DNA from: Prevotella sp.
GTDB taxonomy: Bacteria; Bacteroidota; Bacteroidia; Bacteroidales; Bacteroidaceae
Reading direction: 5' to 3'
Assembly (NCBI GenBank): GCA_016287755.1
Contig: JAEEWT010000003.1
Span: 180,193-244,192 of the forward strand
Length of the DNA: 64,000 nucleotides
The position numbers and the translations under genes were made by a program. Of this stretch, positions 16,172 to 60,785 are shown piece after piece (the first letter of the stretch is position 1; each line of letters begins with the position of its first letter). The notes under the pieces are model-generated. The model saw only the letters and a program-made list of their open reading frames with translations, was not told the origin of the DNA and did not search any database.

Positions 16172-16173
16172 TA

Positions 16174-16211
16174 GAAGCAAGAGGCAAGAGGCAAGAAGCA
16201 AGAAGCAAGAA
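16174..16211. repeat. Heptad repeat tract
   Basis: GAAGCAA GAGGCAA GAGGCAA GAAGCAA GAAGCAA GAAC. Confidence 0.8.
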
Positions 16212-16215
16212 CTTT

Positions 16216-16262
16216 TGGAGCAGCGAGTGCCACCATGCTTGCATGATTGGCCGAGTCGTGAC
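16216..16262 (+). other. Conserved-flank stem-loop element, copy 1
   Basis: TGGAGCAGCGAGTG [CCACCATGC tt GCATGATTGG] CCGAGTCGTGAC; conserved flanks shared with 51706-51756. Confidence 0.6.
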
Positions 16263-16282
16263 GAAAGTCAACGAAGTTAAAA

Positions 16283-20605: not shown

Positions 20606-22009
20606 GTGAAGAAACTCTATATAGAAACATATGGGTGCCAGATGAACGTGGCCGACTCAGAGGTTGTTGCCTCTGTGATGCAGATGGCCGACTATGAGGT
20701 CACCACAGATATTCAGGATGCAGATGCGGTATTCTTGAACACCTGTTCGGTAAGAGACAATGCCGAACAGAAGATCTACCACCGCTTGGAAGAGCTGAAT
20801 GCGATGCGCAATAAGCGCACCAGCGACTCAAACGGCGCTCCACACACCACACCCCACACTCCTCGGTTAATCATAGGTGTTCTTGGCTGTATGGCCGAGC
20901 GGGTGAAGGATGATCTGATTAAGAACCATCATGTGGATCTGGTGGCAGGACCGGATGCCTATCTTTCGTTGCCCGACTTGATTGCGCAGTGCGAACTGGG
21001 GCAGAAAGCAATCAATATCGAACTCTCCAATACCGAAACCTACCGTGATATTCTTCCCCAACGACTGCATACTGCCAAGGTGGGCGGCTTCGTGAGTATC
21101 ATGCGCGGCTGTAATAACTTCTGTCATTACTGCATCGTGCCTTATACCCGAGGAAGGGAACGCTCAAGAGATGTGGAGAGTATTTTGCGCGAGGTTCAAG
21201 ACCTGCAGCAGCGGGGATTCAAAGAGGTGACGCTGTTGGGACAGAATGTGAACAGCTATGGATTGTCTCCCAGCGGGAAACCACTGCCCGATGGAACGAG
21301 TTTTGCTGAACTGCTGAGAAAGGTGGCAAAGGCTGTTCCTGAGATGCGCGTGCGTTTTACCACATCCAATCCCGAGGATATGAGCGAGGACATCCTCCAC
21401 GCCATTGCCGAGGAACCGAATCTGTGTCGACATATCCACTTCCCGGCGCAAAGCGGAAGTAACCATACCCTGAAACTGATGAACCGCAAATATACGCGTG
21501 AGGACTATCTGAACAAGGTGGAGGCCATCAGAAGGATTATCCCTGATTGCGGTCTTTCAACAGATATCTTCGTGGGCTACTGCGATGAAACGGAAGAGGA
21601 CTTCCAGCAGACACTCTCGTTGGTGCGTGAGGTGCAGTTCGATTCCGCGTTTATGTTCAAATACTCGGAACGACCAGGTACCTATGCTGCCAAGCACTTG
21701 GCGGATAATGTGCCTGAGGAGGAGAAGATTCGCCGACTGAACGAGCTGATAACGCTGCAGACACAGATCTCAGCCGACCGTAATAAGCTGGATGTGGGAA
21801 AGGTGTTCGACGTGCTGGTGGAAGGATTCAGTAAGCGCTCTCGTGAGCAGCTGATGGGACGCAACGAGCAGAACAAGGCCGTGGTGTTCAACAAAGACGG
21901 GCATCATATCGGTGAAACGGTTCGTGTAAAAATCACTGAGAGTTCCAGCGCCACGCTGAAAGGTACTATTATCGACGAAGGAGGAAGGAGGAAGGACGAA
22001 GGAGAATAG
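20606..22009 (+). CDS. miaB: tRNA-2-methylthio-N6-dimethylallyladenosine synthase
   Basis: KKLYIETYGCQMNVADSEV; radical-SAM RGCNNFCHYCIVPYTRGRERSR; GTG start preferred because the TTG at 20585 overlaps the -7 element. Confidence 0.92.
   Translation: MKKLYIETYGCQMNVADSEVVASVMQMADYEVTTDIQDADAVFLNTCSVRDNAEQKIYHRLEELNAMRNKRTSDSNGAPHTTPHTPRLIIGVLGCMAERVKDDLIKNHHVDLVAGPDAYLSLPDLIAQCELGQKAINIELSNTETYRDILPQRLHTAKVGGFVSIMRGCNNFCHYCIVPYTRGRERSRDVESILREVQDLQQRGFKEVTLLGQNVNSYGLSPSGKPLPDGTSFAELLRKVAKAVPEMRVRFTTSNPEDMSEDILHAIAEEPNLCRHIHFPAQSGSNHTLKLMNRKYTREDYLNKVEAIRRIIPDCGLSTDIFVGYCDETEEDFQQTLSLVREVQFDSAFMFKYSERPGTYAAKHLADNVPEEEKIRRLNELITLQTQISADRNKLDVGKVFDVLVEGFSKRSREQLMGRNEQNKAVVFNKDGHHIGETVRVKITESSSATLKGTIIDEGGRRKDEGE
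20840..20864. repeat. Heptad-like tract inside miaB
   Basis: CACACAC CACACCC CACACTC CTCGG; encodes GAPHTTPHTPR between MRNK and LIIGVLGCMAER. Confidence 0.65.
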
Positions 22010-22090
22010 AATAGAGATACAAATAAGGGGTATAGAGGTCCTGATGCATGATGCAAATCTCCTTCCTCTTTCCTCCTTCCTCCTTCCTCG
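21976..22090. repeat. 115-bp element with heptad inverted termini
   Basis: Left CGAAGGAGGAAGGAGGAAGGACGAAGGAG, right CTCCTTCCTCTTTCCTCCTTCCTCCTTCCTCG; left end encodes the MiaB tail DEGGRRKDEGE. Confidence 0.75.
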
Positions 22091-22108
22091 AAAAAAATAT
22101 TAGAAAGC

Positions 22109-23947: not shown

Positions 23948-24919
23948 ATGAAAGGGGGGATAGGATATAAGTTGCTATATGGTTGTGCCTATGCGGTATC
24001 GTTGTTGCCGTATAGCATCTTGTATGTGGTCTCCGATTTCTTCTATCTGCTGGTGTATCACCTTGTGGGCTATCGTAAGAAGGTGGTCAGAAAGAACCTG
24101 TCTTCTTCGTTCCCCGAGAAGGATAAACAGGAACTGAAGAAGATCGAGAAGGCCTTCTATCACTGGTTGTGCGACTACTTCGTTGAGACGTTGAAACTGC
24201 TGAGTGTATCGGATGAGACGCTGCTGAAGCACATCGAGTTCCGCAATGCCGAAGAGATAGAGCAGTGCTTCGACAAAGGACAGTCGTGCGCGGCCTTCCT
24301 GGGGCATTACTGCAATTGGGAACTGCTATCTACAACAGCCTTGGCCATGTCGCGCTGGAAAGAAACCACGAACGAACGGCAGTCGGCTGTAATGGGACTG
24401 ATTTACCATCCGCTCAGGAACAAGGCGTTCGACCGTCTGTTCATCCAGCTACGACAGAAGAAACAGGGTACTTGTATCCCCAAGAAGGAGATTCTTCGCT
24501 ATCTGGCTAAATACAGAAAGGAGCAGCGGATGTCGCTGTTCGGCTATATCGCCGACCAGAATCCGAAGTGGGAGAATATCCATCTGTGGCTGCCGTTCCT
24601 GAATCATGACACGCCTGTGTTTACCGGCGCAGAGAGGATCGTAAGGAAAATGAACAATGCGGTGTTCTATGTCGATATGGAACGACCTGAACGGGGGAAG
24701 TATATCTGTACTTTCAAGCGGATGAGTGATGCGCCGGGACAACTGGAGGAATATGAACTGACACGACAGTTCTTCCAGATGCTCGAGGAAACGATTCGTA
24801 GGGCACCGCAATACTACCTCTGGACGCATAACCGATGGAAGCGGACGCATGAAGAGTTTGATAGGAGGAAGGACGAAGGAGGAGGGAGGAAGGATTCCCT
24901 CCGGGAAGGACGAAGTTGA
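23948..24919 (+). CDS. Lysophospholipid/lipid A acyltransferase family (LpxL/HtrB-like)
   Basis: FLGHYCNWELLSTTAL, GYIADQNPKWENIHLWLPFLNHDTPVFTGAERI, YYLWTHNRWKR. Confidence 0.88.
   Translation: MKGGIGYKLLYGCAYAVSLLPYSILYVVSDFFYLLVYHLVGYRKKVVRKNLSSSFPEKDKQELKKIEKAFYHWLCDYFVETLKLLSVSDETLLKHIEFRNAEEIEQCFDKGQSCAAFLGHYCNWELLSTTALAMSRWKETTNERQSAVMGLIYHPLRNKAFDRLFIQLRQKKQGTCIPKKEILRYLAKYRKEQRMSLFGYIADQNPKWENIHLWLPFLNHDTPVFTGAERIVRKMNNAVFYVDMERPERGKYICTFKRMSDAPGQLEEYELTRQFFQMLEETIRRAPQYYLWTHNRWKRTHEEFDRRKDEGGGRKDSLREGRS
24863..24915. repeat. Heptad GGAAGGA-type tract at acyltransferase 3' end
   Basis: AGGAGGAAGGACGAAGGAGGAGGGAGGAAGGATTCCCTCCGGGAAGGACGAAG; encodes DRRKDEGGGRKDSLREGRS. Confidence 0.7.
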
Positions 24920-51678: not shown

Positions 51679-51756
51679 CTTAGAAATGGCCATGGCGAGA
51701 ACCGATGGAGCAGCGAGTGCAATGCCAAATGTATTTGGGCGTTGCCGAGTCGTGAC
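51679..51756 (+). repeat. Partial leader fragment plus conserved-flank stem-loop, copy 2
   Basis: CTTAGAAATGGCCATGGCGAGAA (leader fragment) then TGGAGCAGCGAGTG [CAATGCCAAAT gt ATTTGGGCGTTG] CCGAGTCGTGAC. Confidence 0.65.
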
Positions 51757-51799
51757 TGAGGAAGAATAAAATTCAAAAAGTCTAACGAATGTGAACTTT

Positions 51800-51930
51800 T
51801 TCGATAAGCCAAATGAGCCATTCAAGCTTGCTTAGAAATGGCCATGGCGAGAAAAAGTCTAACGAATGTGAACTTTTGTGAACTTTTTCCCTGCGATTTA
51901 TTTGGAACTTTCATTGGTCGTTTCTATCTT
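51800..51930 (+). promoter_or_regulatory. Leader block L0: hairpin region plus promoter
   Basis: CGATAAGCCAAATGAGCCATTCAAGCTTGCTTAGAAATGGCCATGGCGAG...GTGAACTTTTTCCCTGCG...TCTATCTTTGCAC; repeated at 55.2, 58.7 and 60.5 kb. Confidence 0.8.
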
Positions 51931-51950: not shown

Positions 51951-53708
51951 ATGAAGCGAATTGCGTATATTGTTGTTATTTTATGCATGTTCCTGTCTTG
52001 CGGCATAAGACGGGAGTATAAAGATGCCTTGCTGCGGGCAGAGGCGGTCATGGACGAGCACCCTGATTCTGCCCTGCAGATTCTCGACAGCTTGGGACAA
52101 TACGAGAGTGAGTTCACCCGCCACTTCCGTATGCAGTATCAGCTGCATCGGCAGAACGCCGTGAACAAGACCAGCGATAAGTTCACTTCCGACTCCCTTT
52201 GCCAGGTGCTTGTTAGCTACTTCGACCGCCACGGCACCGTTAATGAACGCGTACTCGCCCACTATCTCTTAGGCCGTGCCTACACGGATATGGGGGACGC
52301 CCCGCAAGCTATTAGTAGTTATCAGGATGCCATTAGTGCGGCAGATACAACAGTTACTGGTTTCAAATTCAGCACGTTGAATCGTATCTATGCACAGATG
52401 GCAGATATTTATCATCATCAACTCCTTTTGACTGATGAAATAGAAACACGTAAAAAGGCCAGTTACTATGCTTTCCGTGCCAACCAGCCTAAATGGGGCA
52501 TTTACAATCAAGCCATGATGGCAAATGCCTACATTCTTTTAAACCAGAAAGACACTGCTGAAACCATTCTAAAAGCTGTACGTGAACAGTTTCGTAAACA
52601 CGGCTATACCCAAGAGGCATTGCGGTATTCAAGACCACTTATGCATCTCTATACCAACCCACCTCAGCGACTGACTGAGGCTAAGGCATTGATGGATCAG
52701 TTTGAGGCAGAGTCTGAATTGTTTGACGAGCGCCACGAGCTCCCGCCCTCACAACGCAAATACTACGAATACAAAGGCAAGTACTATGAGGGCATCAACA
52801 AGCTTGACTCGGCAGAGTTTTATTACAGGAAAACAAGATACCCTAATATGGATTATACCGCGCAAGACCCGATGTACAAAGGTCTTCTGAGTGTATTTAC
52901 CAAGCGGCATCAGGCGGACTCCATTGCCAAATATGCCCGATTGTATTGCATGGCTAACGACTCCTCCATCGCCCTCAAGGATCGGGACGCTGTGGCCCAG
53001 ATGACCGCCACATACAACTACAGCCGACTGCAAAAGGAGGCGCACGAGAATGAGGTTAAGGCCTACAAGACACTGCTTGGCCTAATTATCGCGGCTGCTG
53101 TTGCCGTTCTTGCCTTGGTGGCTGTTTTCCTCGTTTGGAAACGATTCCGCAGGAAGTATCAACAGGAGATTATGCAGTTAAAGACGGAGTATGCCAACGC
53201 TTCCTACGAATATGAGGAGAACCTGCGTGAGCTGCAGCTGCTTGAATCTGCCCATCAAGAAAACGAGAGTGAGAGGAAGAGACTTCTGGACGAGAACGTG
53301 GAGTTGCAGAGCAGGATCCGGGAGCTCCAGAAGGAAAAGGCCATATCCAGGAACCTTTCTGCTTCCGCATTGTTTGCGGAAGAACCCATTGTCAAAAGGT
53401 TCCATGAAATAGCCGTTCAGCCGTTGGCGAACGTGAAAGAGGAGGAATGGGCAGAGCTGACAGACACGTTTGCCAACAGTTATCCGGATTTGTTCCTCGA
53501 CCTTTGTCAGTATTGCAACACCCCGCAGAGCATCCGTGTCTGCATGCTGACGGTCATGGGTCTCGGCAACAACGAGCAGGCGAATCTGCTGGGTACCACC
53601 AGTTCGAGAATATCCAATGTCAAGCTGGCTCTTAACAAGGCCCTCTTCAATGAATCATCCTCACGCACCCTGAACAAGAACTTGTTAATGCAGTATAGTG
53701 TGTATTAA
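51951..53708 (+). CDS. Membrane-anchored TPR protein with C-terminal HTH-like region (putative regulator)
   Basis: Lipobox-like LCMFLSCG; TPR-like repeats; TM LLGLIIAAAVAVLALVAVFLVW; C-terminal LTVMGLGNNEQANLLGTTSSRISNVKLALNKALF. Confidence 0.65.
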   Translation: MKRIAYIVVILCMFLSCGIRREYKDALLRAEAVMDEHPDSALQILDSLGQYESEFTRHFRMQYQLHRQNAVNKTSDKFTSDSLCQVLVSYFDRHGTVNERVLAHYLLGRAYTDMGDAPQAISSYQDAISAADTTVTGFKFSTLNRIYAQMADIYHHQLLLTDEIETRKKASYYAFRANQPKWGIYNQAMMANAYILLNQKDTAETILKAVREQFRKHGYTQEALRYSRPLMHLYTNPPQRLTEAKALMDQFEAESELFDERHELPPSQRKYYEYKGKYYEGINKLDSAEFYYRKTRYPNMDYTAQDPMYKGLLSVFTKRHQADSIAKYARLYCMANDSSIALKDRDAVAQMTATYNYSRLQKEAHENEVKAYKTLLGLIIAAAVAVLALVAVFLVWKRFRRKYQQEIMQLKTEYANASYEYEENLRELQLLESAHQENESERKRLLDENVELQSRIRELQKEKAISRNLSASALFAEEPIVKRFHEIAVQPLANVKEEEWAELTDTFANSYPDLFLDLCQYCNTPQSIRVCMLTVMGLGNNEQANLLGTTSSRISNVKLALNKALFNESSSRTLNKNLLMQYSVY

Positions 53709-53800: not shown

Positions 53801-54000
53801 CATTTATTTTGTATTGTGCTCGCTTAATCGTACATTGGCTTTGCCGAAGATACTCTCGCTCGACTATAAAAATAAATACAAATTTATTTTGTATTGTGCT
53901 CGCTTAATCGTACATTGGCTTTGCCGAAGATACTTTCGCTCGACAATAAAAATAAATACAAATTTATTTTGTATTGTGCTCGCTTAATCGTATCTTTGCA
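53801..54000 (+). repeat. 80-bp tandem repeat of a promoter module (about 2.4 copies)
   Basis: TTTATTTTGTATTGTGCTCGCTTAATCGTA starts at 53803, 53883 and 53963 (period 80); only the last carries TATCTTTG. Confidence 0.85.
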
Positions 54001-55228: not shown

Positions 55229-55490
55229 TTCGATAAGCCAAATGAGCCATTCAAGCTTGCTTAGAAATGGCCATGGCGAGGAAAAGTCTAACGATGTGAA
55301 CTTTTGTGAACTTTTTTCTCGCGAATTATTTGGAACTATCATTTGTAGTATCTATATTTGCACCGGATTCGTGGGGTTCACTTTAGAAGTGTTCCTTCGA
55401 TTCACAAATGAAGTATACACTTTATATGGTGTTTAACATTATTTCTTATTTGCAGATGCAGTATTTCGCAATCTTCGTGTTTAGAGTTAA
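55229..55490 (+). promoter_or_regulatory. Leader block L1 (hairpins, promoter, conserved 5'UTR)
   Basis: Matches L2 and L3; TATATTTGCACCGGATTCGTGGGGTTCACTTTAGAAGTGTTCCTTCGATTCACAAATGAAG... Confidence 0.85.
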
Positions 55491-57606: not shown

Positions 57607-57663
57607 TTGTTTCAGAAAACAGTCTATAATTTTGGACGTTTCAAAGGAAAACCAAAACAAGCT

Positions 57664-57783
57664 TTTTAGATACTTTCGCTCGACAATAAAAATAAACTCA
57701 CATTTATTTTGTATTGTGCTCGCTTAATCGTATCTTTGCACAAGTTTTGTAGCAACTATAGTATAACTATTAAATTTGACATT
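57664..57783 (+). promoter_or_regulatory. RhuM-A promoter/5'UTR block
   Basis: TTTTAGATACTTTCGCTCGACAATAAAAATAAACTCACATTTATTTTGTATTGTGCTCGCTTAATCGTATCTTTGCACAAGTTTTGTAGC; near-identical to 59549-59669 and related to 53801-54000. Confidence 0.8.
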
Positions 57784-58656: not shown

Positions 58657-58918
58657 TTCGATAAGCCAAATGAGTCATTCAGGCTTGCTTAGAAATGGCC
58701 GTGGCGAGGAAAAGTCTAACGAATGTGAACTTTTGTGAACTTTTTTCTTGCTAATTATTTGGAACTATCATTTGTAGTATCTATATTTGCACCGGATTCG
58801 TGGGGTTCACTTTAGAAGTGTTCCTTCGATTCACAAATGAAGTATACACTTTATATGGTGTTTAACATTATTTATTATTTGCAGAAGCAAGGTTTCGCAA
58901 TCTTCGCATTTATATAGT
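58657..58918 (+). promoter_or_regulatory. Leader block L2
   Basis: Near-identical to L1 including CACTTTAGAAGTG hairpin and TATATTTGCACCGG promoter. Confidence 0.85.
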
Positions 58919-59509: not shown

Positions 59510-59548
59510 CTTTGACTTTCAAAGGAAAAGCCTATCTTTAAAACTAGT

Positions 59549-59669
59549 TTTTTAGATACTCACGCTCGACAATAAAAATAAACTCACATTTATTTTGTAT
59601 TGTGCTCGCTTAATCGTATTTTTGCACAAGTTTTGTAGCAACTATAGTATAACTATTAAATTTATGATT
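59549..59669 (+). promoter_or_regulatory. RhuM-B promoter/5'UTR block
   Basis: Near-identical to the RhuM-A block; -7 reads TATTTTTG instead of TATCTTTG. Confidence 0.8.
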
Positions 59670-60544: not shown

Positions 60545-60785
60545 TTCGATAAGCCAAATGAGCCATTCAAGCTTGCTTAGAAATGGCCATGGCGAGAAAA
60601 AGTCTAACGAATGTGAACTTTTGTGAACTCTTTTCCTGCGAATTATTTGGAACTATCATTTGTAGTATCTATATTTGCATCGGATTCGTAGGGTTCGTTT
60701 CAAAAGCGTTCCTCCGATTCACGAATGAAGTATACATCCAAGCGGTGTTTAACATTGTTTAATATTGGCAGATGCAGTATTTCGT
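60545..60785 (+). promoter_or_regulatory. Leader block L3
   Basis: Homologous to L1/L2 with more substitutions; 5'UTR hairpin CGTTTCAAAAGCG. Confidence 0.82.

Follow-up and report, generated by a model that had tools for sequence, protein, structure and literature searches.

The two stem-loops of the window, a 64-kb stretch of a 3.2-Mb rumen-type Prevotella genome (G000, contig C38, 180193-244192), are members of a large family of hairpin repeats of about 70 bases that are mobile in Prevotella genomes. We consider it probable (roughly 70%) that these are palindromic DNA repeats of about 69–77 bp, REP/RPE-like, mobile but non-autonomous, which have spread through Prevotella and related Bacteroidaceae. 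The element combines a conserved core and three covarying helices with precise insertion of the whole unit, polymorphism, in-frame insertion, and heptad enrichment.

Searching for GGAGCAGCGAGTG-N-CCGAGTCGTGAC, in which N stands for the variable part, resulted in exactly two occurrences in the window (16217-16262 and 51707-51756; chance expectation 0.00 in 100 shuffles) and in four occurrences in the whole genome, with none for the reversed-pattern control. An earlier note on this DNA had described common flanks at two distant loci enclosing stems that differ in sequence yet pair, and computed pairing of both window copies agreed with this description. The unit delimited there included the core and the inner hairpin but was too short, since the outer stem and a tail mini-hairpin had been missed. 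Copy 1 (16210-16278, plus strand, 69 bp; covariance model (CM) score of 80.9 bits, E = 5.6e-29) lies in the gap separating an epimerase gene from a PAP2 gene, with 4 bp between it and the PAP2 ATG that follows, and the sequence of this copy is also present at two other loci of G000. Its 5' outer arm AACTTTTG (16210-16217, plus) forms a covarying helix with the 3' outer arm CGAAAGT (16262-16268, plus; partner ACTTTTG), followed by the tail mini-hairpin AAC-GAA-GTT (16270-16278, plus), the third helix covarying family-wide, and the inner stem-loop (16230-16250, plus) is variable. The heptad tract noticed beside this copy is real, and such tracts recur genome-wide; it consists of AAGCAAG/AGGCAAG units (16173-16209, plus), is in register with the left end of copy 1, and contains two heptads more than in the sister genome G178. 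Copy 2 (51700-51774, plus; CM 72.0 bits, E = 1.9e-25) is a 75-bp insertion splitting the cassette-leader repeat GGCGAG / AAAAAGTC. On the plus strand it is composed of the 5' outer arm AACCGATG (51700-51707), the conserved 5' half of the core GGAGCAGCGAGTG (51707-51719), a variable inner stem-loop CAATGCCAAAT GT ATTTGGGCGTTG (51720-51744), the conserved 3' half of the core CCGAGTCGTGAC (51745-51756), and the tail mini-hairpin GAATAAAATTC (51764-51774). The outer stem, which is variable and covarying family-wide, is weak in this copy, with three non-standard pairs in the CM alignment.

Generally, a unit of about 69–77 bp is built from a 5' arm AANNNNN(G), the core GGAGCAGCGAGnG, a variable hairpin, the core CCGAGTCGTGAC, and a 3' arm complementing the 5' arm, followed by a linker (TC or GAA), a tail mini-hairpin NNN-GAA-NNN, and AA in the flank. 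An intrinsic terminator was rejected, as this arrangement behind the outer stem has no T-run. The inner stem has a bulged A that is conserved, its loop is frequently GCTTGC, and the core displays conserved non-canonical contacts (tandem G-A, G-T). Pairing without sequence identity, as first proposed from the two window copies, extended to the many further copies found, in which the stems are kept and covary: 79 distinct inner stems were present among 120 distinct exact-core copies, and in an alignment of 42 sequences 93% of the pair cells were standard and 16 pairs had changed on both sides. The covariation score of this alignment (0.449) was far above that of shuffled (0.152) and slid registers (<0.1). 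In tests with separate shuffles, the values were 4.44 of 6 for the inner stem (2.81 shuffled), 5.44 of 8 for the outer stem (3.32 shuffled), and 1.97 of 3 for the tail helix (1.14 shuffled). Of 139 copies, the plus strand had the more stable fold in 133 when RNA parameters were applied and in 126 when DNA parameters were applied, probably because of the non-canonical core contacts, and DNA folding of isolated single copies revealed nothing exceptional. Some units deviate from this organization. An extra insert AAGGCTACGGGTAGGCGAGC... between core and 3' arm was detected at loci L027, L031, L083, and L101 in several genomes, which suggests nested repeats, and at L090 a copy adjoins a shortened version, GGAGCAGTCGTGAC, lacking the entire inner hairpin as if cleanly deleted.

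The three covarying helices and the RNA fold favouring the plus strand (133/139) would also fit a hairpin acting as RNA, i.e., a 3'- or 5'-UTR element or small RNA whose covariation reflects selection on the RNA at each locus. Comparison of 110 copies with mechanically called ORFs revealed 40 intergenic co-directional copies, 22 antisense to both neighbours, and 23 mixed ones, the rest being located inside an ORF (19) or at edges (6). While the mild co-directional intergenic excess (40:22) and the short distance of copy 1 to a start codon speak for an RNA, copies occur in either orientation and inside ORFs, match no Rfam 15 covariance model, and turn over rapidly between relatives of about 96% identity. 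In addition, in the few orthologous copies shared by G000 and G178 we found no compensatory change as a sign of selection on resident copies, and one stem was broken. We therefore regard a resident RNA as unlikely; an RNA role is not needed to explain the data. Of the two options left by the earlier note, a structured RNA or a recombination-site-like element, clean empty sites strongly favour the mobile, recombination-like branch, and the resident structured RNA or regulator is not supported.

Genome G178 is about 95–97% identical to G000 and largely syntenic. For 11 core-type copies of G000 the orthologous region was located, with eight of them being absent from G178, two shared, and one present as a remnant, and 11 copies of G178 were missing in G000. 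Since both genomes are draft assemblies, some of these presence/absence differences could be assembly effects; the in-frame sites were nevertheless aligned through. The first of these is in the gene for leucyl-tRNA synthetase (LeuRS), identified by its LeuRS domains, in which GAAAACGGACAATAC of G000 corresponds to GAAAACGGAC[...]AACGGACAATAC of G178, an in-frame insertion of 69 bp that places 23 extra residues a short distance ahead of the KMSKS motif. The second, a 72-bp in-frame insertion adding 24 residues, was identified in a membrane acyltransferase-like gene, named by sequence appearance only. In both cases the orthologues lacking the element are intact. A further clean site showed a 69-bp insertion preceding AAATCACAG, and in the window the insertion in the leader is exactly 75 bp (51700-51774), with the leaders at 51831, 55260, 58688, and 60576 of the same array being uninterrupted. 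Insertion took place directly 5' of A or AA (AA at the LeuRS, acyltransferase-like, AAATCACAG, and leader sites). Where target and 5' arm are identical, up to 7 bases of uncertainty attach to the exact left boundary.

The leaders belong to a cassette array (51.7–63 kb) that includes serpin and RhuM-family genes. Two uninterrupted leader repeats on the plus strand represent paralogous empty sites, one at 51831-51877, a diverged hairpin of the same architecture as the element (CM 13 bits), and one at 60576-60622 (GGCGAG/AAAAAGTC). Together with 55260-55306 and 58688-58734 they are all diverged hairpins with the architecture of the element, having outer arms ACTTTTT/AAAAAGT and inner CCATTCAAGCTTGCTTAGAAATGG. 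The position of copy 2 at the head of this repeated-leader array, the conserved ends around a variable pairing centre, and the strand asymmetry recall a site for site-specific recombination, integron attC-like or of another type, that folds as a single strand. However, attC requires conserved GTT/AAC cleavage triplets, and the terminal GTT is unconserved in the family (tail ends GTT, GCT, GTC, GCC, and GGTC); moreover, the copies are single and dispersed rather than placed between cassettes. Together with the absence of the insertion from the array leaders, this makes such a site very improbable.

Two other kinds of hairpins were observed. A weak relative on the minus strand at 53915-53999 (CM 23.5 bits, E = 3.4e-6; core GATTAAGCGAG / CGAGCGAAAG) overlaps promoter-like sequence and belongs to a second sub-family, with further members in the window at 57655-57739 and 59541-59625 (both minus) and one at 98992-99067 of contig C38, where G000 has one unit more than G178. 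This sub-family is characterized by the core G(A)ATTAAGCGAG / CGAGCGAAAG and a GACGAAGTC-like tail, and it overlaps, on the plus strand, a Bacteroidetes-type promoter sequence TTTG...TATCTTTG. Another palindromic repeat has heptad-tandem inverted arms (e.g., CGAGGAAGGAGGAAGG..., AGTGTGGAGTGTGG...) enclosing a core similar to AATAGTACTGAGATA...TATCTCAGTATCAT; it was found in the window at 21964-22099 and on contig C38 at 24515-24670, 52955-53105, 65380-65520, and 98155-98300, and its arm sequences differ between copies and still pair.

Period-7 tandem tracts numbered about 41 in 244 kb (one of them an N-run) compared to at most six for most other periods, and none were found in shuffled sequence. 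A four-unit tract of this period flanked 18% of the copies versus 0.4% of nearby control positions, the 7-mers on either side of the element were 68% identical versus 43% with shuffled partners, and 7-bp direct repeats at the element borders were enriched (z about 9.6). A fixed 7-bp target duplication everywhere was nevertheless rejected, as several clean sites lack a duplication: AACGGAC is duplicated at the LeuRS site, and no duplication was detected at the leader, L281, and L185 sites. Some orthologous empty sites retain heptads, so that the tracts can exist without the element. The flanking tracts, their abundance, the heptads often retained at empty sites, and the finding that all copies of genome G049 lie in (A/G)ATTGAA-type sequence would be expected if recombination or gene conversion, without any transposase, carried hairpins from one dispersed heptad tract to another. 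The clean insertions in the LeuRS gene, the acyltransferase-like gene, and the cassette leader are free of heptads, though, and homologous spread through heptads cannot explain these sites; we thus consider it improbable. There is also a similarity (z about 7) between an element's own 5' arm and the 7-mer that follows its right end. Since the 3' arm pairs with AANNNNN and the downstream sequence tends to resemble the 5' arm, one tentative and rather doubtful idea, drawn from sequence comparison, is that the outer arm may serve as a re-programmable guide, in which case the target would be chosen by pairing with the element's own arm, arm and target would co-evolve, and heptad tracts would be targets or scars.

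In regard to copy number, G000 revealed at least 87 CM matches at E<=0.1, probably a lower bound as 150 of 913 first-look candidates were scored; all such counts depend on the model, whose training set was exact-core copies. The exact pattern was present in 9 of 200 genomes of the genus. In GTDB genomes it occurred in 108 stretches, nearly all of them from Bacteroidales and most from rumen Prevotellaceae. Using the covariance model, we detected the element in 53 of the 60 genomes sampled from the genus (copy numbers ranging from 0 to 76), and in 66 of 121 genomes of the family representing 19 of 22 genera, and no match in any of 117 other genomes across the phylum (118 drawn including G000 itself). 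Genome G049 harbored more than 20 near-identical copies at different loci, often as tandem units of 70–80 bp. Viral sequences gave one match, close to the end of the examined stretch of a viral contig, and the plasmid sequences searched did not contain the element.

No mobilizing enzyme was found, and the obvious candidate, a Y1/RAYT transposase, fails in genome, correlation, and flank searches. G000 had no match to Y1_Tnp, Y1 genes did not correlate with copy number across 60 genomes (Spearman 0.19, p 0.15), and around the six best Y1 genes in the genus the covariance model gave nothing significant out to about 1.5 kb. Based on these three results, mobilization by a resident Y1/RAYT enzyme and an IS200 origin were rejected. 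A local GC-skew proxy showed no replication-strand bias (44 vs 49), a result that speaks against insertion via lagging-strand ssDNA as in IS200/IS605. The loci examined contained no autonomous or split version with a transposase, unpaired half-elements being degenerate copies or chance, and the stretches between neighbouring copies hold ordinary host genes. For the mobile repeat favoured here, we propose that the plus strand would be recognized as a folded single strand and moved by a putative enzyme acting in trans. The protein would then touch the invariant internal loop GGAGCAGCGAG/CCGAGTCGTGAC, which holds the tandem G-A and G-T contacts. Of the three helices (outer, inner, tail) it would require no more than that they are helices, so that their sequences could drift with pairing kept.

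In rumen and gut, few genera are as common as Prevotella. If the proposed mobility is correct, a recently active high-copy hairpin element without the known REP transposase reshapes intergenic regions in this genus and adds new peptides in frame to essential enzymes, leucyl-tRNA synthetase being one example. The pair G000 and G178 offers clean filled and empty sites for testing a mobilizing enzyme. Furthermore, since mobile DNA too can show covariation, covariation by itself is not proof of functional RNA in microbiome RNA-motif surveys.

Rickettsia palindromic elements (RPE) are short palindromes located in frame in protein genes, and no transposase is known for them. The Prevotella element likewise inserts in frame inside coding genes (23 aa in LeuRS, 24 aa in the second gene), but it is unrelated in sequence and lineage and is mainly located between genes and in heptad tracts. 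RPE-4 and RPE-6 were described as CGTC-tagged REPs (PMC3733652). The open-access literature on REP, MITE, and other palindromic repeats, heptanucleotide repeats, and RAYT covers related systems and not this family, which appears to be previously undescribed as far as that literature shows. Similar to Bacteroidetes MITEs, e.g., MITE/BrickBuilt of P. gingivalis (PMC4596501), the element is non-autonomous, short, palindromic, and mobile. Its outer arms are inverted repeats that vary by covariation and are not fixed terminal inverted repeats, the loci examined contained no parental insertion sequence, and the direct repeats at its borders are not a simple target duplication everywhere. REP/BIME sequences moved by RAYT (TnpAREP) HUH transposases are high-copy, short imperfect palindromes, extragenic and sometimes in frame in genes, which form strand-asymmetric mismatched hairpins and tandem arrays and keep their fold as the sequence diverges (PMC3733652, PMC6006769). 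In comparison to REPs of 20–40 bp, the Prevotella element is about twice as long (69–77 bp), with a covarying outer stem and a hairpin at its tail, and it has no 5' GTAG/CGTC tag outside the hairpin: the position of GT[AG]G at the hairpin foot is taken by AANNNNN(G) of the outer stem, and GGAG sits in the invariant core. Unlike RAYT-mobilised REPs, it is found in a genome lacking a Y1/RAYT gene, and the six top Y1 genes are not flanked by it. For Bacteroidetes TnpAY1 subclass 2.6, atypical flanking hairpins are also reported that lack GT[AG]G and recur at other places in the genome (PMC6006769); compared by description rather than sequence, G000 has many copies and no Y1 gene. In the broad sense, the Prevotella element resembles REPs in its many dispersed copies with a conserved imperfect-palindrome hairpin.
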